From Turneriella parva DSM 21527 (lineage in GTDB: Bacteria; Spirochaetota; Leptospiria; Turneriellales; Turneriellaceae): a stretch of DNA of 64,000 bases. A program made the position numbers and the translations under genes. Positions within the stretch are counted from its first letter, which is position 1; each line of letters opens with the position of its first letter. Positions 10,385 through 19,143 of this stretch are shown here, piece after piece. The stretch spans positions 2,542,001-2,606,000 of the forward strand of contig NC_018020.1 of the NCBI RefSeq assembly GCF_000266885.1, in the 5' to 3' direction. Under the pieces are notes generated by a model. The model saw only the letters and a program-made list of their open reading frames with translations. It ran no database searches and was not told the DNA's origin.

Positions 10385-12015
10385 AACGTTCAATTCTGTT
10401 CGTGTTGACGGCCGGGCTCTTTGCCTGCAGTACTGACCGCATTCGCGACAAGCCCATTTCTTTCTCAGAATGGCGCGTGCAGCAAACGCTCGCTTATGTT
10501 GAATCGCGTTATGGCGTGAAACAAGAATCACTCGAGATGCTGCCGGTGATGGTTGTCTCGCACTACACGGCCATGGACTCGCTTGATGTTTCGTTTAATT
10601 ACATGAACCATGAAGAGATGGAATCGGGCCGCAGCCAGCTCAAGAAAGCCGGCGGCGCAAATATCGCCGTGCACTTTCTCGTCGGCAAGGCGGGTGACAT
10701 TTACCGTCTCATGCCCGAGAATCATATCGGCAGGCATGCGATTGGCCTAAATCGCCATTCGATCGGCATTGAGAATGTCGGTAACGATGAAGCGTCACTC
10801 ACGACCGCTCAGGTTGAGGCGAATGAGCTGATCGTTCGCCGGCTGGTGCAGAAATTTCCCATTCGCTATCTGATCGGCCACTCAGAATACCGGCGCTTTG
10901 AAAACACCCCGATATGGGAAGAGGCCGACGAAACCTACCGCACCGAAAAGCATGACCCCGGTGAGTCATTCATGGCGGCGCTCAGGGGGCGCGTTGCCGA
11001 TCTTTCACTCAGAGAGCGCTATGACCGGTCAGAAATTGCTGCCCGTGTAGAGTTTACGCTCGCCGGTTATGCGAAGAAAGGTTTGTTTGCCGGCACGGCG
11101 CTCGTGGTCGACGACGGCAAGATCATCTACCGCGGAGCTTTCGGCAAAAACGCAGAAAGTGGCCAGCCACTCAAACCCGAAAACCGCGTGTATCTCGCTT
11201 CGGCGGCAAAACCGTTTACGGCATTGGCTGCGGCGATGCTCGAAGCAAAGGGAAAAATTTCTTACGAGTCACCGGTAGCGCCGTATTTTCCGCAGCTTGC
11301 GCACCTTTTGAAGGGCGTAAAACTGAAACATCTGCTTGCGCACACCTCAGGCCTGGAAGACTATTATAAGCTGGGCTTGCCGGCAGTTCCCTTCACGAAC
11401 CAGAATGCCCTGGCGCTGATTGCCGCGCAAAAACAGCCGCTTAACCCCGCGGGAAAAAAGTTCGTGTACGCAAATTCAAACTATATACTTATTGCTGAAA
11501 TAGTCGCGAGACTCGCTGGAATGCCATTTGCAGAATTTTTGAGATCCGAAATATTTGCGAAAGCTGAAATGACGGCGACCGATTTCGTCGTGAGTGCAAA
11601 GGCTGAAAATGCACCTGTGCCGGCGACTGATGCAGGGGGTAGGCTGTTCAGGTATGGCTACGCAACGGAAGGGCCGGGGGGGCTCTGCACGACAGTCGAC
11701 GACCTTGCGCGGTTTGATCTCGCGCTTTTCGGCAATAAGCTTCTGAAGCCGAGGTCGCAGGCAAAGCTTTTTAAGGCTCAGGCAGCTGTCGAGGCGCGGC
11801 AGAACCAGTATGCAATAGGGTGGTATGTATATCCCGATCGGGGAGTCGCTTACCACGACGGCAATTTCGGCGGTTACCACTCAATCAACTGGATAAACGC
11901 GAAGAAGAAGCAGGCAATTATTTTACTCGGCAACCGGCACACCGACAAGGTGCGCGAAATCACCTGGCACCTCGACCGCGCGCTGAACGGCCTCGAGGCC
12001 AAAAAACTCGATTAA
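10381..12015 (+). CDS. Lipoprotein fusing N-acetylmuramoyl-L-alanine amidase and beta-lactamase-type serine hydrolase domains
   Basis: 544 residues, GTG start inside the stop of the S41 gene. Lipobox LTAGLFAC. Residues about 50-200 are an Amidase_2 (AmpD/PGRP) domain: VSHYTA (H61), VHFLVG, IGHSE (H167) and HDPG (D192) match the zinc ligands. Residues about 225-530 are a class C-like beta-lactamase/penicillin-binding fold: SAAK (S274, K277), YAN (363-365) and a late HDG standing in for KTG. The first domain should cut the stem peptide from muramic acid; the second could be a DD-peptidase, an esterase or a D-amino acid peptidase. One secreted chain could thus act twice on muropeptides. Confidence 0.85.
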   Translation: MKRSILFVLTAGLFACSTDRIRDKPISFSEWRVQQTLAYVESRYGVKQESLEMLPVMVVSHYTAMDSLDVSFNYMNHEEMESGRSQLKKAGGANIAVHFLVGKAGDIYRLMPENHIGRHAIGLNRHSIGIENVGNDEASLTTAQVEANELIVRRLVQKFPIRYLIGHSEYRRFENTPIWEEADETYRTEKHDPGESFMAALRGRVADLSLRERYDRSEIAARVEFTLAGYAKKGLFAGTALVVDDGKIIYRGAFGKNAESGQPLKPENRVYLASAAKPFTALAAAMLEAKGKISYESPVAPYFPQLAHLLKGVKLKHLLAHTSGLEDYYKLGLPAVPFTNQNALALIAAQKQPLNPAGKKFVYANSNYILIAEIVARLAGMPFAEFLRSEIFAKAEMTATDFVVSAKAENAPVPATDAGGRLFRYGYATEGPGGLCTTVDDLARFDLALFGNKLLKPRSQAKLFKAQAAVEARQNQYAIGWYVYPDRGVAYHDGNFGGYHSINWINAKKKQAIILLGNRHTDKVREITWHLDRALNGLEAKKLD

Positions 12016-12029
12016 ATTATTTGTCGATC

Positions 12030-12058
12030 TGTCCAAGGTTTATTAAGTTCATTGGACA
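12030..12058. promoter_or_regulatory. Inverted repeat just upstream of the lipid operon (candidate operator)
   Basis: TGTCCAA (12030-12036) and TTGGACA (12052-12058) are perfect 7-bp arms 15 bases apart; the right arm touches the first ATG of the operon. A possible -35 box TTGTCG starts at 12021. Placement fits repression by the MerR-type photoreceptor encoded second in the operon, but no binding evidence exists. Confidence 0.4.
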
Positions 12059-13084
12059 ATGATCGATTCGCTTCTCGCCAAGGGGCTTTTGCCCGATTTT
12101 ATCATTCGCCGGGGCATTCGTATGCTGAACCGGCGCCGCCTCAAAGAAATCAGCGCACACAATATTGAGCTCGGTCAGGCCAAAGCAATGGCCCTCGTCG
12201 AGACACTGAGAAAATCTGAGATCGCGATTCTTACCGAGAAGGCAAACGAACAGCATTACGAAATTCCCGCAGAGTTTTTCGCGCTTGTTCTGGGCAAGAA
12301 CAGAAAATACAGCAGCTGCTATTATCCGACAGGCCGCGAATCACTCGACCAGGCTGAAGATCTGATGCTCGCAGAGACTGTCGCGATGGCGCGACTCGCA
12401 GATGGCCAAAATATTCTCGAACTCGGTTGTGGCTGGGGTTCGCTTTCGCTTTATATGGCGTCGAAGTTTCCCAAAGCGCGTATCACGGCGATCTCCAATT
12501 CGGCAAGCCAGAAGGCTTACATCGATTCTGAGGCAAAGCGGCGCGGCATAAAAAATCTGAAGATCATCACGGCGGATGTCAATCGTTTCAAGCCGGCGGC
12601 CTCGTTCGACCGTGTTGTTTCCGTTGAGATGTTCGAGCATATGCGCAACTACGATGAGCTGTTTGGGCGCATACGTTCATGGCTGAAGCCCAAAGGTATG
12701 CTTTTCGTGCACATCTTCACGCACCGCATGTTTCCCTATCTGTTCGAAGACAAGGCGAGCGACGACTGGATGTCGCGGTATTTCTTCTCGGGAGGCATTA
12801 TGCCCTCGAACCAGCTGTTTTCATATTTTTCGAAGGGTTTTAGCCTGAAGGAGCAGCGCATTTTCAAAGGCACGCACTACCATTTAACCAGCGAACACTG
12901 GCTGCAAAATATGGACAAGAACCGCAAGGCGATTGAGGGCATTTTCGCGAAAGTTTACGGCGAGGCAAACGTGACGCGTTGGATTAACTATTGGCGGGTT
13001 TTCTTTCTTGCGGTATCCGAGCTTTTCCGTGCCCGCGGCGGCGAAGAGTGGAACGTCAGTCACTACCTCTTTGAGAAGGCATGA
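12059..13084 (+). CDS. SAM-dependent methyltransferase of the cyclopropane fatty acid synthase superfamily
   Basis: 341 residues. The SAM site is ILELGCGWGSLSLYMA, followed by VEMFEHMRNYDELF and WLKPKGMLFVHIF. The N-terminal part (NEQHYEIPAEFF, CYYPTGRESLDQAE) resembles CFA-synthase relatives such as the coclaurine N-methyltransferase-like group rather than classical CFA synthase. It lies first in a seven-gene operon that has a second, classical CFA-type gene, so it most likely methylates an unsaturated acyl chain or a lipid-derived substrate. It overlaps the photoreceptor gene by 4 bases (ATGA). Confidence 0.85.
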   Translation: MIDSLLAKGLLPDFIIRRGIRMLNRRRLKEISAHNIELGQAKAMALVETLRKSEIAILTEKANEQHYEIPAEFFALVLGKNRKYSSCYYPTGRESLDQAEDLMLAETVAMARLADGQNILELGCGWGSLSLYMASKFPKARITAISNSASQKAYIDSEAKRRGIKNLKIITADVNRFKPAASFDRVVSVEMFEHMRNYDELFGRIRSWLKPKGMLFVHIFTHRMFPYLFEDKASDDWMSRYFFSGGIMPSNQLFSYFSKGFSLKEQRIFKGTHYHLTSEHWLQNMDKNRKAIEGIFAKVYGEANVTRWINYWRVFFLAVSELFRARGGEEWNVSHYLFEKA

Positions 13085-13869
13085 GACTAACCGCGAAAAA
13101 ACTCAGCGAACTCACTGGCGTGCCGGCGGCGAATATTCGCAAGTGGCGCGAGCGCTATTCGATTCTCGACCCACAGCGCGGCGACAACGGCTATCTGTAT
13201 TACACCTCTGAAGACTATCGTGTGGTGCTGGGTATTAACCGGCTGCTCGCCGATGGCAAGAAACTTGCGGGCATTATGCATCTGGGGCGCGGTAAACTGC
13301 TCGAGATCGCTCCGCAGGTTAACTACACAACCGAACAGATGCAGTTTTTAGAGAAGGTGATCGAAGGAAACTTCAGCGTTTTTTCGCAGCAGTACGACGA
13401 ATATCTGCAAACGCATTCGGTTGAATCGTTAGTACAGAAGAAAGTGCATCCGCAGACGGTTTTGGTAGGGCAGGCCTGGGAATCAGGCTTTATCACCGTC
13501 GCGACAGAACATGCTTTCACGCGCTGGGTTATGGGTTATCTCTCTCAGCTTGCGTTGCGGTTTACGCGCAAGAAGGGCGGCGACCGCCTGTTTGTCGCAT
13601 TTCCCGGTGATGCCCATGAACTCGGTGCGATGATGCACTTCGTACTCATGTCGGCTGAGGGACTCGGCGGAAAATTTTGCGGCGCGTTGCCTTTCGACAG
13701 GCTCTTCGAAGAGCTCAACCACGGCGACTACGAAGAGGTTCATGTTTCGGCGACGATTCCCAAATCACGCGAAGAAATCGATAAATTCGTCAGCGCGGTG
13801 CACAAGAAGTTTCCGCATATTAAGGTCAAAATCGGCGGTAGTGGCGCCAAGACAGCAGGTTCAAAATGA
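13081..13869 (+). CDS. MerR-type B12-binding light-sensing regulator (CarH/LitR family)
   Basis: 262 residues. N-terminal MerR winged helix (TAKKLSELTGVPAANIRKWRERY); residues about 85-165 form the helical cap and 166-255 the Rossmann cobalamin domain. In CarH, cap residues W131, V138, E141 and H142 and axial ligand H177 handle adenosylcobalamin; here W133, V140, E143 and H144 keep the same spacing (AWESGFITVATEH), and H179 sits in PGDAHELGAM. Members repress in the dark and release DNA when light breaks the Co-C bond. Lying second in the lipid operon, it probably controls that operon. Overlaps both neighbours by 4 bases. Confidence 0.85.
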   Translation: MRLTAKKLSELTGVPAANIRKWRERYSILDPQRGDNGYLYYTSEDYRVVLGINRLLADGKKLAGIMHLGRGKLLEIAPQVNYTTEQMQFLEKVIEGNFSVFSQQYDEYLQTHSVESLVQKKVHPQTVLVGQAWESGFITVATEHAFTRWVMGYLSQLALRFTRKKGGDRLFVAFPGDAHELGAMMHFVLMSAEGLGGKFCGALPFDRLFEELNHGDYEEVHVSATIPKSREEIDKFVSAVHKKFPHIKVKIGGSGAKTAGSK

Positions 13870-15119
13870 AAAAACTCGCAATCGTCGGCAGCGGGGTTGC
13901 CGGTCTTGGGGCGGCATGGCTTTTACGCGACAGATACGAGATCAGCATTTTTGAGGCGGGTTCATATGTCGGCGGCCATACCAACACATTTGACGTGCCG
14001 CTGCTCGGTGGGGGCACGCAGCCCGTAGATACAGGGTTTATTGTTTTTAACGAGCAGACCTACCCACACCTCTTGACACTTTTTCGTGACCTGGGCGTCG
14101 AATACGCGAACAGCGATATGTCGTTTGCCCACTACAACACGCTGACCGGGTTGCAGTGGTCGTCGCGCGGCCTTGCGGGGCTCTTTGCGCAGAGAAAGAA
14201 TCTGCTTTCGCCACGCTACTATAAATTCTTACTCGAAGCCAACCGCTTCAATACGCAATTGCCAAAAGATCTGGAGCGCGGGCGGGTAGATGGCTCATTT
14301 GGCGATTATCTGCGGCGAAACAAGTTTTCTGATTTTTTCATGCAGAACTACATCGTACCGATGACTGCGGCTGTGTGGTCGACCCCGCCCGATCGTATGC
14401 TGTCTTTTCCCGCGCGCACGTTCGCCCGTTTTTTTGTGAACCACGGTTTTTTAAGTCTGTACAGTGGTCTGCAATGGAAATACGTCGTGGGTGGCAGCCG
14501 CTCGTACGTGAAAAAGATACTCGCCGCGCATAAGGGCAAGGTACACCTGAACGAGCCAGTCAGCCGTGTCAGCGAAGCCGGCGGTAGGGTTGAGGTATTG
14601 ACCGCGAAAGGGCGGCACGAGTTCGATGCGGTATTGCTCGCCACGCACGCCGACCAGTCGCTGCGCATGCTGGCGAACCCCAGCGACGAGCAGAAGAGGC
14701 TGCTCTCTAAATTCAAATATGAGCAGAACCGTGCTGTATTGCACAGCGACGAGAATGTTCTGCAACCGATTAAAAAAACCTGGGCCTCGTGGAACTTTAA
14801 GCTCGGCAAGAATTCAGCCGGCGGGTTTAAATCGACAGTCGTTTATTACATGAACCTGCTGCAGAATATTCCCGGCCCGGTGAAATATTTCGTGTCGCTG
14901 AATGATTTTCAAATTATCGACCCCGCAAAGATCTACGCCACAATTGATTATGAGCACCCGCTCTTTGACGAGCAGACAGAGATAGCGCAAGCGCATTTGC
15001 CGCGACTCAACGAAACCGGTAATATTTTCTTCAGCGGCAGTTATTTTCGCTACGGCTTTCATGAAGATGCCTACATGTCAGCGGTAAATGCGGCCGAGGC
15101 AATTGCACGCAGGCTGTGA
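13866..15119 (+). CDS. FAD-dependent amine oxidase-like protein (COG2907)
   Basis: 417 residues. The N-terminal FAD site is LAIVGSGVAGLGAAWLL with EAGSYVGGHTNT; GGTQPVDTGFIVFNE is typical of the COG2907 group, and the C-terminal FFSGSYFRYGFHEDA holds the second FAD contact. COG2907 proteins are regularly found with DUF1365 and cyclopropane synthases, and relatives are implicated in oxidative modification of acyl chains. It overlaps the regulator by ATGA and is followed directly by DUF1365. Confidence 0.85.
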   Translation: MKKLAIVGSGVAGLGAAWLLRDRYEISIFEAGSYVGGHTNTFDVPLLGGGTQPVDTGFIVFNEQTYPHLLTLFRDLGVEYANSDMSFAHYNTLTGLQWSSRGLAGLFAQRKNLLSPRYYKFLLEANRFNTQLPKDLERGRVDGSFGDYLRRNKFSDFFMQNYIVPMTAAVWSTPPDRMLSFPARTFARFFVNHGFLSLYSGLQWKYVVGGSRSYVKKILAAHKGKVHLNEPVSRVSEAGGRVEVLTAKGRHEFDAVLLATHADQSLRMLANPSDEQKRLLSKFKYEQNRAVLHSDENVLQPIKKTWASWNFKLGKNSAGGFKSTVVYYMNLLQNIPGPVKYFVSLNDFQIIDPAKIYATIDYEHPLFDEQTEIAQAHLPRLNETGNIFFSGSYFRYGFHEDAYMSAVNAAEAIARRL

Positions 15120-15121
15120 GA

Positions 15122-15877
15122 ATGAAAGAAGGAGTTTATTCACTCGAAATCTTTCATGAGCGGCGAAAACCCGTGCCGCAGAAGTTCACGATCAGGGGCT
15201 ACATGCTCTTCGTCGACGTTTCGCGATTCGACAGTCGTGATGCCAGCAGGCTTTTGGGTTTCGACCGCCGCAGGTTGCACAGCTTCAGGCGCAGCGACTT
15301 TTCTTTGCTGCGCGATTCAAGCGAAACTTCCCGTGGCGCCGCGCTGGCATTTCTCAAAAAAGCGACGGGACTCACAGCAGACACCGTGATGCTGCTCGCT
15401 AACCCGGCAATCTTTGGTTACGTGTTTAATCCGGTGAGTTTCTTCTTTTGCTACCGCAATGGCGCCCATGTCGCGACGATCGTCGAGGTGAACAATACCT
15501 TTGGCCAGCAAAAACATTACCTGGTGCGGGCGGGTGAAAGATACAACGCGCAGAAAAACTTCTACGTTTCGCCTTTTATTTCGTCATTTCACCATTTCGC
15601 GATGCGGTTAGGTGCCCCTGCTGATCGCCTCTCGATCGGCATACACACGCAGAAAGAGGGCAAGGCCGAGCTGGTGGCTGAAATGCGTGGCACGCGCTCG
15701 CCGCTCACCGACCTGCAGCTGCTGGCGGCGTTTTTCAAATTTCCATTTTATACCGCGCGCGTAATCGTCATGATACACTGGTATGCCCTTCGCCTGATGC
15801 TGAAGGGTGTGCCGTTTTATCCGAAAGAAAATACCGACGCAGCATTGCTGCACGCAGATTTGAGGAGCTCGAAGTGA
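15122..15877 (+). CDS. DUF1365 family protein
   Basis: 251 residues with the DUF1365 hallmarks FGYVFNPVSFFFCY, IVEVNNTFGQQ and the conserved KNFYVSPF. In Rhodobacter sphaeroides DUF1365 genes belong to the singlet-oxygen (RpoE/ChrR) regulon, and the family travels with CFA synthases. Biochemical function is not firmly established. ATG 15122 is chosen; a GTG six bases upstream overlaps the previous stop and is also possible. The last 4 bases overlap the CFA synthase start (GTGA). Confidence 0.88.
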   Translation: MKEGVYSLEIFHERRKPVPQKFTIRGYMLFVDVSRFDSRDASRLLGFDRRRLHSFRRSDFSLLRDSSETSRGAALAFLKKATGLTADTVMLLANPAIFGYVFNPVSFFFCYRNGAHVATIVEVNNTFGQQKHYLVRAGERYNAQKNFYVSPFISSFHHFAMRLGAPADRLSIGIHTQKEGKAELVAEMRGTRSPLTDLQLLAAFFKFPFYTARVIVMIHWYALRLMLKGVPFYPKENTDAALLHADLRSSK

Positions 15878-17130
15878 CATTTTACAAGAAGCTGTTTCGC
15901 TATGGATTGTCCCGTATTCAGAAGGGTAGTCTGACGATTACCGAATCATTTGCAGGTGGTGAAACCTATTCGCTGCGTGGCAACCAACCCGGATACGAAG
16001 CCCAAATCACCGTGCAAGATCCCTATTTTTACAAGCACTGCGTACTCTATGGCGAAATCGGTTTTGGCGAAAGTTATGTTTCCGCGACCTGGCAGACGAC
16101 TGACCTGAATCTGACGCTGCGCTGGTTCGCAGACAATGCGCGACAGATGCCGGGATTTTCGGGATCATCAGCATCAACCTGGTTTTTGAACGTTCTCGGT
16201 TTTGTGAACCGTATAAAACATTTCTTCAGACCGAACACCATCAAGATCAGCAGAAAAAATATCGCTGAGCATTACGACATCGGCAACAGACTGTATGAAT
16301 TGATGCTGGGCAAAACCATGGCCTATTCGTGCGGTATTTTTCGTAAAGCCACTGACACGCTCGACGCCGCGCAAGAGCGCAAGTTTGAAACGATTTGCCA
16401 GAAGCTGCAGTTGCGAAAGGGCGATCATCTGCTCGAAATTGGCAGCGGCTGGGGTGGTTTCGCGATTTATGCAGCCCGCAAGTACGGCTGTCGCATTACG
16501 ACAATTACAATTTCTGAACAGCAGTTTATTTATGCTCAGCAGGCGATACGCAAAGCGCGCCTCGAGAAACTCATCGACCTCAGAATTTGTGACTACAGAA
16601 CGCTTGAAGGCCAGTTCGATAAAATCGTCTCGATTGAAATGGCAGAGGCAATTGGTTTCAAATATTTCGACACCTATTTCGGTAAGGTGGCCAGCCTGTT
16701 GAAGCCCGAAGGCCTCGCCGTTCTGCAATACATTACATTTCCCGAGTCGAGGTTCGAACAATATCTGAAGAATACCGATTTTTCACAGATTTATATTTTC
16801 CCGGGATCGTGCCTGCTGTCAAATCACGAGGTCATGAAATCGTTGCACCGTACATCAGATCTGTTGCTCAACGATCTTGAAACGATGGGCCAGCATTATT
16901 CAACGACGCTGCGCCGGTGGCGGCAGAACATCGAGAAGAACCGTAAAGAATTGCTCAAAATGGGGTACGATGAAAAGTTCTTACGCAAATGGGTCTATTA
17001 TCTCTGTTTTTGCGAGGCGGGTTTCGCCGAGCGTGCGATCAATGATGTACAGGTAGTCTTAGGGCGGGCAAATACAAAACAACTGGGGGATTACAATGGA
17101 CTGGTTGAACCTTATCTCGACAGGCTGTAA
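15874..17130 (+). CDS. Cyclopropane fatty acid synthase-type methyltransferase
   Basis: 418 residues, GTG start. The N-terminal domain (GSLTITESFAGGETYSL, YGEIGFGESYVSATWQTTDL) is the lipid-binding part of CFA synthases; the catalytic part has ISRKNIAEHYDIGNRLYELML, MAYSCGIF, LLEIGSGWGGFAIYA and VSIEMAEAIG. Bicarbonate-site-type residues (Glu/His/Tyr cluster around the C-terminal FCEAGF) are present. It transfers the SAM methyl group to cis-unsaturated phospholipid acyl chains, giving cyclopropane or methyl-branched chains. Its 3' end overlaps the next gene by 35 bases. Confidence 0.88.
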   Translation: MTFYKKLFRYGLSRIQKGSLTITESFAGGETYSLRGNQPGYEAQITVQDPYFYKHCVLYGEIGFGESYVSATWQTTDLNLTLRWFADNARQMPGFSGSSASTWFLNVLGFVNRIKHFFRPNTIKISRKNIAEHYDIGNRLYELMLGKTMAYSCGIFRKATDTLDAAQERKFETICQKLQLRKGDHLLEIGSGWGGFAIYAARKYGCRITTITISEQQFIYAQQAIRKARLEKLIDLRICDYRTLEGQFDKIVSIEMAEAIGFKYFDTYFGKVASLLKPEGLAVLQYITFPESRFEQYLKNTDFSQIYIFPGSCLLSNHEVMKSLHRTSDLLLNDLETMGQHYSTTLRRWRQNIEKNRKELLKMGYDEKFLRKWVYYLCFCEAGFAERAINDVQVVLGRANTKQLGDYNGLVEPYLDRL

Positions 17131-17827
17131 ACATGCGACAGTTATCGCAATCGCCATCATGACAGTAGAGGTTTCGGCCTCGACTGCCGGCACGTTGAAA
17201 TTCAGGGGAGATGCCTACGATCTTTCGACGGGTAAATTCGTTTATTCTGAGAATCATTCGGAGTTCTACAAAGAAGGCAAACATGCATATTCGCGTGTAT
17301 CGTACCGCGACGCTGCCGGCAAAGAATTCGCGAGCAAAATAATCACATTTCTGCCAAACCGCACGCAACCCACGTACGAGCTGCGCGATGTGCGCGACGG
17401 TTATGTTGAGGGCATCAGGCGCGAGGCAGGGGGTACAGTGTATTACGCACGGCGCAAGGCCGATGAGCCGATGAAAGAAAAACGCATACAAACCCCTGCG
17501 CCTGCGGTGTTTGACGGTGGCTTTGATTATTTTGTGCGCGAAAATTTTAACGAGATCTGCGCAGGTACGAATAAGTCGTTTTTCTTTGCTGTACCCATAG
17601 AACTCGATTACTTTCGCTTTCGTGTGGCACGGCAAGAGTCTGGCGATGTCTGCCGCATGAACCTCGAGCTCGATAACGTGTTGCTGCGGCAGATCGTGCG
17701 CCCGATTAAACTCTGGTATGAAACGAAAACGGGCCGGTTAAAAAAATACGAGGGCATTTCAAACATCAATGGCCCCGATGGCAAGAGTCTCAAGGTGCGC
17801 GTCGTTTTCACCTATCCAGAGAAATAA
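17096..17827 (+). CDS. Secreted protein of unknown function in the lipid operon
   Basis: 243 residues. Hydrophobic leader HATVIAIAIMTVEVSAS, then a beta-rich body (TLKFRGDAYDLSTGKFVYSE, VFDGGFDYFVRENF, IVRPIKLWYETKTGRLKKYEG), consistent with a periplasmic lipocalin- or DUF3108-like lipid-binding barrel. The start overlaps the CFA synthase by 35 bases; a later start at 17159 would shorten the leader. It sits between CFA synthase and the MFS carrier, whose start overlaps its stop by one base. Function unknown; lipid handling is inferred from context. Confidence 0.65.
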   Translation: MDWLNLISTGCKHATVIAIAIMTVEVSASTAGTLKFRGDAYDLSTGKFVYSENHSEFYKEGKHAYSRVSYRDAAGKEFASKIITFLPNRTQPTYELRDVRDGYVEGIRREAGGTVYYARRKADEPMKEKRIQTPAPAVFDGGFDYFVRENFNEICAGTNKSFFFAVPIELDYFRFRVARQESGDVCRMNLELDNVLLRQIVRPIKLWYETKTGRLKKYEGISNINGPDGKSLKVRVVFTYPEK

Positions 17828-19143
17828 TGCGCATATTACCCTTATCGCTTTATGCGCTGGCCGAATCAGGTATTTTTGCCGTCGAGTTTTTTGTCAGGCT
17901 GCAACTGCTGATCTATTACACCGATGTGCTGAAAATTGAGAGTTATCTTGCCTCGATAGCTGCCGGCGCTGCTCTCGTCTGGGATGCCTTCGTGGACCCC
18001 TATGTCGGCACGCTCTCTGATACGTTCAAAAGCCGCTGGGGCAACCGTAAACCGTTTCTGGTCGCGGGCGCGGTATTGATAATACCGTCGCTTTTTTGGA
18101 TATTTGCTCCCTACACGGCTGCCGGCACAGTTGCAATCTTTGTGCAGCTGTTACTCTCGAACCTGTTGCTCAACACAGGCATTACCCTGGTCACGGTGCC
18201 ACACGCGGCGATTTCTGCTGAACTCTCTAAAGATGCCGCAGTACGCGTTCGTATTTTCGCTGCCCGGTTGCTTTTTGCCAACTTCGGCTTGATTCTTGGA
18301 CTCGTCATACCTGCGGCGTTTATGGGCAGCGGACGCAGCACGGGCACCGCACCCTACGAGGTCTTCTCGCAGATTGCTCTGGTCATGGGTGTTATATGTT
18401 TTGCAGCGGTTATCGTCTGCGTTCTCTCGCTCAAAACGACGCACAGCGAGCAGCAAAAATCTGCTGAGCGCAGTTTCTTGAATGACCTGAAGCTGGCGGC
18501 TCGTAACAGATTCTTCGTGGCGCTTTTCATAGCAGGATTTTTAGCGTACATCGCCGTCGCCATCAATTCGACACTCGCGCGCTTCTATTATGACCATTTT
18601 CTGAAACTGAACGAAGACGAGCTGGCTCTGGTTCTGATCGTCTTCATTTTGGTTTGGTCTTTTTCTGTCGTTTTGTGGGTAACTCTCGCGGATAAGTTCG
18701 GCAAAGACCTGCCGGCCACGGTCGGCATTGTCGGGCTGGGCTTCATGACAATATTCAGTTATCCGTTTTTTCCAGAGGGCAAACTGGCAGGGCCAATAGC
18801 TGCGGCTGTTCTGGGCGGCATATTCACCGGCTGCATTTTGCTGTTTGATTCGTATGTCGCCGATGCAGCCGATATCGATTCGGCGAAAAGCGGCCAGAAC
18901 CGCGATGGCCTCTATTTTGGCCTCTGGAAATTCGGCATCAAGGCTTCGCGCGGTGTTGCCGTTGCGCTTTCGGGCATGCTGCTCTGGGCGATTGGCTACC
19001 AGGCTGGTGTTACTCCGGATGAAACTGTCAAGTTTCGTATTGCGCTACTCTTTGGGCCCGCCGTTGGTTCGATTTTTGTGCTGTCAGGGCTGGTATTCTA
19101 TTTCTCTGCCGCAAAAGCGCGCCGCGCCGCGACCGCAACCTGA
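17827..19143 (+). CDS. MFS transporter of the GPH (glycoside-pentoside-hexuronide) type
   Basis: 438 residues, about 12 transmembrane segments. Early motif AALVWDAFVDPYVGTLSD and KSRWGNRKPFLVAGA match the GPH/MelB-like group, with the conserved Asp in helix 2. GPH-like carriers are regular companions of CFA/DUF1365 clusters; a lipid or lysophospholipid substrate is more likely here than a sugar, by analogy with MelB-fold lipid carriers such as LplT and MFSD2A. Start overlaps the previous stop (TAATG). Last gene of the operon; only 38 bases follow before the recombinase. Confidence 0.82.
   Translation: MRILPLSLYALAESGIFAVEFFVRLQLLIYYTDVLKIESYLASIAAGAALVWDAFVDPYVGTLSDTFKSRWGNRKPFLVAGAVLIIPSLFWIFAPYTAAGTVAIFVQLLLSNLLLNTGITLVTVPHAAISAELSKDAAVRVRIFAARLLFANFGLILGLVIPAAFMGSGRSTGTAPYEVFSQIALVMGVICFAAVIVCVLSLKTTHSEQQKSAERSFLNDLKLAARNRFFVALFIAGFLAYIAVAINSTLARFYYDHFLKLNEDELALVLIVFILVWSFSVVLWVTLADKFGKDLPATVGIVGLGFMTIFSYPFFPEGKLAGPIAAAVLGGIFTGCILLFDSYVADAADIDSAKSGQNRDGLYFGLWKFGIKASRGVAVALSGMLLWAIGYQAGVTPDETVKFRIALLFGPAVGSIFVLSGLVFYFSAAKARRAATAT

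Follow-up and report, generated by a model that had tools for sequence, protein, structure and literature searches.

We examined a 64,000-nucleotide stretch of the genome of the spirochaete Turneriella parva DSM 21527 (NCBI RefSeq assembly GCF_000266885.1, contig NC_018020.1, positions 2,542,001 to 2,606,000; hereafter the window, in which position 1 is the first letter), focusing on an operon that places a putative vitamin B12-dependent light sensor among genes for lipid modification. Seven plus-strand open reading frames (ORFs) run head to tail from 12059 to 19143, with successive overlaps of 4, 4, 4, 4, 35, and 1 bp. The first encodes MT1, a CMAS-superfamily methyltransferase of 341 aa (12059..13084, Pfam CMAS 6.7e-39, placed by a tree and by neighbor genes), and the second a 262-aa CarH/LitR-like regulator, here called CarHx, with a MerR helix-turn-helix and a cobalamin-binding domain (13081..13869, Pfam MerR_1 and B12-binding_2). 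These are followed by a UfaD-like flavin oxidase/desaturase (13866..15119, Pfam Amino_oxidase), a UfaO-like DUF1365 protein that is a candidate furan-ring oxygenase (15116..15877, PF07103 6.2e-65), and MT2, a UfaM-like fatty acyl methylase (15874..17130, Pfam CMAS 1.4e-78, also placed by the tree), and then by genes for a putative secreted protein and a carrier. An earlier note on this DNA had described seven tightly coupled genes of named families, and both the overlaps (1-35 bp) and the Pfam assignments agree with it. Directly ahead of the first gene, and within the interval (12000-12060) where that note had guessed a regulatory site, lies an inverted repeat, TGTCCAA-N15-TTGGACA (12030..12058, no strand), that abuts the MT1 start codon and that we interpret as the operator. 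The same contact between operator and ATG (12052-12061 in the window) occurs in two relatives of the same genus (L039, L041). The mRNA may therefore have no leader or only a minimal one, or else translation may begin at a later codon.

The inverted repeat was first spotted by eye in the upstream sequences of regulator operons, and it is rare. In its exact consensus form, TGTCNAA-N14-16-TTNGACA, there are two sites in the whole 4.4-Mb genome and none for a reversed-pattern control. The second site lies outside the window (C1:1401380-1401407; 1444-1471 of locus L099), 29 bp ahead of the start codon of a gene whose product fuses a BLUF domain (PF04940, 1.6e-25) to a class III cyclase domain (PF00211, 5.8e-10) and matches photoactivated adenylyl cyclases in the PDB at 2e-84; the shared operator would place this blue-light receptor under the same switch as the lipid operon. 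Because a 16-position pattern with up to three mismatches gave 9 sites in this genome against 26 for the reversed control, weak sites are uninformative, and our genome-wide statements rest on exact forms. The half-site, TTnGACA, contains the TnnACA half-site of CarH (PMC9304148), with the arms inverted and 22 bp apart. We also considered a classical CarH operator of tandem 11-bp direct repeats and rejected it, finding only two TnnACA pairs 11 bp apart in 24 upstream regions on both strands. A third gene of the genome that resembles cyclopropane fatty acid (CFA) synthase has no operator with fewer than three mismatches.

To place the regulator in a wider context, we searched 296 genomes of the phylum, of which 46 matched at E ≤ 0.001; the 28 genomes scoring above 70 bits all fall within the 48-genome class of T. 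parva (Leptospirae). DUF1365 exceeded its cut-off in 39 of the 296 genomes, 31 of these in the class, where the two genes tend to occur together (both in 25 genomes, regulator only in 3, DUF1365 only in 6, neither in 14; Fisher's test, 3.6e-5), and two of the three regulator-only genomes are cut by contig ends. BLUF genes were found in 20 of the 48 class genomes, 19 of them with the regulator (BLUF/regulator table 19/1/9/19; Fisher's test, 1.5e-5); both tests ignore phylogeny. Among 30 fetched neighborhoods—28 class loci plus two remote homologues from outside the class (L067, L068)—a UfaD-like gene directly follows the regulator on the same strand in 22 of the 26 class loci with downstream sequence, the other two being cut by contig ends. 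An order kept this widely is not due to chance, and UfaO and MT2 then follow in 20 class loci. MT1 or the GPH carrier is frequently close by, sometimes divergent. Since the arrangement recurs among class genomes, we rejected chance adjacency of the operon genes.

Genes for light sensing and photorepair also lie near the regulator in the class. A divergent photolyase gene adjoins it in five loci (L048, L056, L058, L062, and L064; cluster c5, with Pfam run on one representative), BLUF-cyclase genes are close by in several (Pfam), and four loci have genes resembling photoactive yellow protein (PYP; cluster c8), one representative of which matches PYP structures at 3e-25. The PYP-like genes are accompanied by genes for an aromatic amino acid lyase and an AMP-binding ligase. 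Four loci (L047, L053, L059, and L061) have the regulator without adjacent UfaD-like lipid genes, its neighbor being a BLUF-cyclase gene in L061 and a cation-efflux gene in L047. A further scan of genome contigs returned 23 loci, all from metagenome-assembled genomes titled spirochaete or ‘bacterium’, and no characterized relative.

The operator accompanies the regulator across these relatives. With at most one mismatch and a spacing of 14-16, it was found in 15 of 28 regulator upstream regions (L040, L065, and L066 were excluded from the scan for contig ends), compared with a mean of 0.03 and a maximum of 1 over 100 shuffle rounds. A stricter form occurs in 6 of the 48 class genomes, all six with the regulator, and the control is zero in all. 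The N15 consensus gave 32 sites in 20 of the class genomes versus 17 for the control, and only regulator-bearing genomes have more sites than the control (25 versus 9 in these 28 genomes; 7 versus 8 in the 20 others). More than half of the 32 sites (18, all in regulator genomes) precede module or light genes, namely MT1, the regulator, BLUF cyclase, PYP, desaturase, DUF1295-MT1, and a GPH/cyclase pair; the desaturase row is not independent, because its query was taken from beside one of the sites, and the count without it is 17 of 32. In relatives, the operator stands ahead of the regulator, BLUF cyclases, a photolyase, a PYP gene, and a desaturase; genome G048 has copies ahead of a PYP-like gene (L118/L151) and of a fatty acid desaturase gene (L114/L149). 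Within the 180 bp scanned upstream, a site with up to two mismatches precedes 9 of 21 BLUF genes, as against 19 of 1050 shuffles, and in a tenth (G220) an exact operator overlaps the start codon by 1 bp. The downstream arm forms a -35-like hexamer in several relatives, with a -10-like hexamer 16-18 bp further on, as likewise in CarH/class I LitR systems, and this fits repression by occlusion. For three of the uncounted sites we looked up the neighboring genes: a TonB-dependent receptor gene in a genome of the same genus (L153, G110), which could serve cobalamin uptake; a UvrA-type excision-repair gene (L138, G080), which might fit photoprotection and was left uncounted; and a peptidase gene.

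The regulator aligns with Thermus thermophilus CarH over residues 6-201 (E 4e-13). Its residues W133, V140, E143, H144, and H179 align with CarH W131, V138, E141, H142, and H177, just as the earlier note had said of the cap residues and axial histidine, and the adenosyl-cap motif Wx9EH is present as W133-x9-E143-H144. In CarH numbering, W131, E141, and H177 are invariant in the 22 aligned class rows, and H142 is kept in 21. There is a MerR-type DNA-binding domain with an RxWERRY-like recognition helix (PF13411 6.6e-13; RKWRERY in the window protein), and the classic B12 motif, D/ExHx2G/P-x41-SxT/V-x22-27-GG, is present as D/ExHx2G-x40-SxT-x26-GG, with x40 where the published spacing is x41; with spacing and sixth position relaxed, the pattern fits 18 of the 22 rows. 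An AlphaFold model (pLDDT 88.7, pTM 0.81) found its best Foldseek matches in CarH and photocobilins, with full-length CarH ranked first, and VIA-align of residues 83-260 gave Z scores of 16-17 for photocobilins and CarH, 14.6 for CtMerR, and 11.8 for methionine synthase. A cobalamin adenosyltransferase is encoded in the same genome (3.2e-57). Judged by its residues and predicted fold, the regulator is of the B12-binding photoreceptor type and would be expected to bind B12.

The lipid enzymes, in turn, match a characterized set by type. UfaM, UfaD, and UfaO produce methylated furan fatty acids in Rhodobacter sphaeroides and Rhodopseudomonas palustris, UfaO carrying DUF1365 and FufM adding a second methyl group (PMC7380195), and the R. 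sphaeroides ufa operon also includes RSP_1089, a GPH-family symporter (PMC7074977); the T. parva operon has the same enzyme types, GPH carrier included. Compared with seven proteobacterial loci, the UfaD-like oxidase is 33-42% identical to the DUF1365-adjacent oxidases and the UfaO-like protein 22-36% identical to its counterparts. In a methyltransferase tree that followed up the phylogeny proposed in the earlier note and drew on other module members in place of UfaM itself, MT2 clusters with DUF1365-adjacent methylases from seven proteobacterial plasmids (support 99/97), with both E. coli Cfa and the third CFA-like protein of the genome, the latter on a long branch, outside that clade, and MT1 sits in a separate clade with methylases adjoining DUF1295 genes. 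Identity between MT1 and the UfaM-type rows of the tree is 24-30%, and FufM is reported to be 26% identical to UfaM (PMC7380195); a FufM-like second methylation by MT1 is a guess. We rejected a plain CFA synthase operon, since DUF1365, oxidase, and UfaM-type methylase occur side by side and the clade of these methylases does not include E. coli Cfa. It is also conceivable that light control is right and the lipid is no furan, the end product being a cyclopropane, a methyl-branched, or a diene fatty acid, or the enzymes acting on another lipid. Such an outcome, compatible with the regulatory part of our preferred reading, draws on the still putative activities of the UfaO-like protein and MT1 here and on the modest identities of the UfaD- and UfaO-like proteins to proteobacterial members; with UfaD, UfaO, and UfaM types adjacent in 20 of the 30 fetched loci, as in the characterized pathway, we consider it unlikely.

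The reading that we prefer, and consider fairly probable, is that an adenosyl-B12 repressor released by light controls an operon for methylated furan lipids together with other photobiology genes. In the dark, the CarH-like repressor with adenosylcobalamin would bind the 29-bp inverted repeat as a symmetric assembly, and in this position it would overlap the promoter of its own operon and block transcription. Light would break the Co-C bond, releasing the repressor and allowing expression. UfaM-like MT2 would then methylate an unsaturated acyl chain of a phospholipid, from which the UfaD-like oxidase would make the methylated diene and the UfaO-like protein, using O2, would close the furan ring; a second methyl group may come from MT1. 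The resulting furan lipid would scavenge reactive oxygen made by light.

Several observations count against this reading. In the regulator, the upper ligand of the light state of CarH, His132, is replaced by E134 (across the class rows, E in 18 of 22, Q in 2, and S in 2), and of the CarH tetramer contacts R176, D201, G160, and G192, which in the window protein read A, A, T, and G, only G192 is kept; the R176-D201 salt bridge and G160 are unconserved, at positions that vary across the 22 rows. The fourth element of the published light-response signature, GxxxP, is one residue shorter (GxLP), and the NCBIfam CarH equivalog model NF052513 scores 68.4 bits (E 5.7e-19) against a cut-off of 400. Putative orthology to the reference UfaM (RSP2144), UfaD (RSP1091), and UfaO is based on synteny, the DUF1365 family, and a tree of other module members. 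On the side of regulation, the operator is absent upstream in L044, L045, L049, L052, and L054, where the regulator follows a same-strand cyclase gene; 14 of the 32 class sites are without a counted light or module neighbor; 11 of the 21 BLUF genes, with G220 added to those that have a site, are without one of two mismatches or fewer; the photolyase gene of T. parva itself (C1:237870) has no operator with fewer than three mismatches; and a promoter scan gave no sigma-70 match over the window operator.

The claim of the earlier note that the sensor should be active was overstated, passing over the absent His132 and the unconserved interface. His132 is not universal as light-state upper ligand among CarH/class I LitR members, and for T. 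thermophilus CarH H132A one study found a mostly tetrameric protein in the light, contrary to an earlier report of its disassembly (PMC10442372). CtMerR of Chloracidobacterium thermophilum, a B12-MerR that also lacks His132, with Arg there instead of Glu and with a DNA-binding domain unlike that of the window regulator, has a cobalamin-binding domain that reportedly shifts from a tetrameric to a monomeric state on illumination (PMC11796333), so a regulator without His132 may still respond to light, by implication through another light-state chemistry. Given both this loss and the unconserved interface residues, the light-sensing mechanism of the window regulator must be a different one from that in T. 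thermophilus CarH. The same two features would suit a regulator that senses cobalamin status, binding B12 of any form and coupling lipid modification to B12 supply, as would the operator-like site beside the TonB-dependent receptor gene in the same-genus genome. We hold this to be very unlikely, because W131 and E141 of the adenosyl cap show no variation across the 22 rows and because the genes that the operator precedes or separates in relatives include three unrelated types with roles in light sensing or photorepair (BLUF cyclase, PYP, and photolyase).

Comparison with known systems sharpens the contrasts. CarH/class I LitR proteins (T. thermophilus, Bacillus megaterium, Myxococcus) share with the window regulator a MerR domain, a two-part B12 domain, Wx9EH, and the lower axial His, but their targets are carotenoid genes, as opposed to lipid and photoreceptor genes, and their operators are 11-bp direct repeats; by sequence, CarHx departs from standard CarH in the His132-to-Glu change, the interface, and the inverted operator. 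In Pseudomonas, the class II LitR proteins PplR/PmlR repress ufaM, an FAD oxidoreductase gene, and photolyase in a light-dependent manner (PMC9758184), so that control of this lipid module by a light-responsive LitR-family MerR is already published. That system keeps one of the two B12 domains, both of which are present here, relies on a short LOV protein as sensor, and uses the site TGTACA-N12-TGTACA, unlike the inverted repeat described here. The R. sphaeroides RpoE-ChrR regulon (UfaM, UfaD, UfaO, and RSP_1089) involves the same enzymes and GPH carrier but is triggered by singlet oxygen through an anti-sigma factor and not by a light-sensing repressor (PMC7380195, PMC7074977), and in Vibrio cholerae MerR and ChrR mediate a blue-light response that induces a CFA synthase gene (PMC5241685). 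In further proteobacterial loci, all or some of these enzymes are found alongside an extracytoplasmic function (ECF) sigma factor plus either ChrR or a different anti-sigma gene, alongside a sigma factor and cupin gene, or alongside MerR and photolyase, so that the regulator slot of the module is variable.

A B12-MerR in this slot is not unique to spirochaetes. Plasmid pAZKH of the betaproteobacterium Azoarcus sp. KH32C (L161) encodes one, with W, E132, EH, and H177, divergent from UfaD-UfaO-UfaM; a match below cut-off to the Pfam B12-binding Rossmann model was also obtained for that regulator, and the case is one of linkage only. The Azoarcus locus further contains chalcone isomerase-like, MFS, DUF3833, and SDR genes.

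These precedents raise the alternative that the T. parva regulator, in the manner of class II LitR or CarA, is itself blind to light and depends for its release on a partner photoreceptor, as a LOV protein does in Pseudomonas (PMC9758184), or that a singlet-oxygen route through an ECF sigma factor and ChrR acts on the operon. The genome does have a ChrR-cupin gene directly after one for an ECF sigma factor (L193, C1 around 896907), and sigma/ChrR genes adjoin all or part of the lipid module in Shinella, Mesorhizobium, and Ensifer. We nonetheless judge this alternative unlikely, since the protein here has both B12 subdomains as well as the lower His ligand, class II retaining only the four-helix domain, and the ChrR-like gene is about 1.66 Mb from the operon. 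Returning to the light-released B12 repressor, the suggestion in the earlier note that light switches on a protective lipid gains partial support from the photoreceptor-type fold, the furan-lipid enzyme set, and the operator common to photoreceptor genes; as an idea it was not new, given the light induction of Pseudomonas ufaM through a LitR-type MerR (PMC9758184). In a literature search that most subscription papers lay beyond, we found no B12-type regulator for the lipid module, no inverted-repeat operator, no sharing of an operator with a BLUF cyclase, and no link of B12-type CarH to furan fatty acids or Leptospirae.

The remaining operon genes encode a putative secreted protein (17096..17827, +; secretion judged by eye from the N-terminus), with no Pfam matches and with homologues in 14 of the 30 fetched loci, and a GPH-family MFS_2 carrier (17827..19143, +; MFS_2 7.9e-61), the counterpart of RSP_1089. 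An amidase/beta-lactamase gene stops 43 bp ahead of the first operon gene, and a phage-integrase-family recombinase gene (xerC/D-like) begins 38 bp past the last.

If the preferred reading is true, B12 light sensing would extend from carotenoids to membrane furan lipids, and the same lipid module would appear to be wired to at least three inputs across bacteria: singlet oxygen (RpoE-ChrR), LOV/LitR, and a probable B12 photoreceptor. The analysis also provides a concrete 29-bp operator with a candidate two-locus regulon in a spirochaete. It further points to a lineage whose aligned regulators, 22 of 22, are without the bis-His ligand thought necessary for CarH release. More tentatively, at a little less than an even chance, the Leptospirae may have a new subclass of B12 master light repressors, distinguished by the absence of His132, by an inverted-repeat operator spanning two turns, and by light-state chemistry of another kind, that controls a furan-lipid shield, other photoreceptors (the BLUF cyclase and, in some relatives, PYP), and photorepair, so that one photoreceptor would set the capacity to sense other colors and, via cyclic AMP (cAMP), possibly motility. 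In Leptospira kobayashii, light-controlled swimming depends on LprA, a light-dependent enzyme that makes cAMP (PMC9043183), and the system described here may connect to this behavior. Light may thus set, if the reading is true, both membrane protection and light sensing in this spirochaete.

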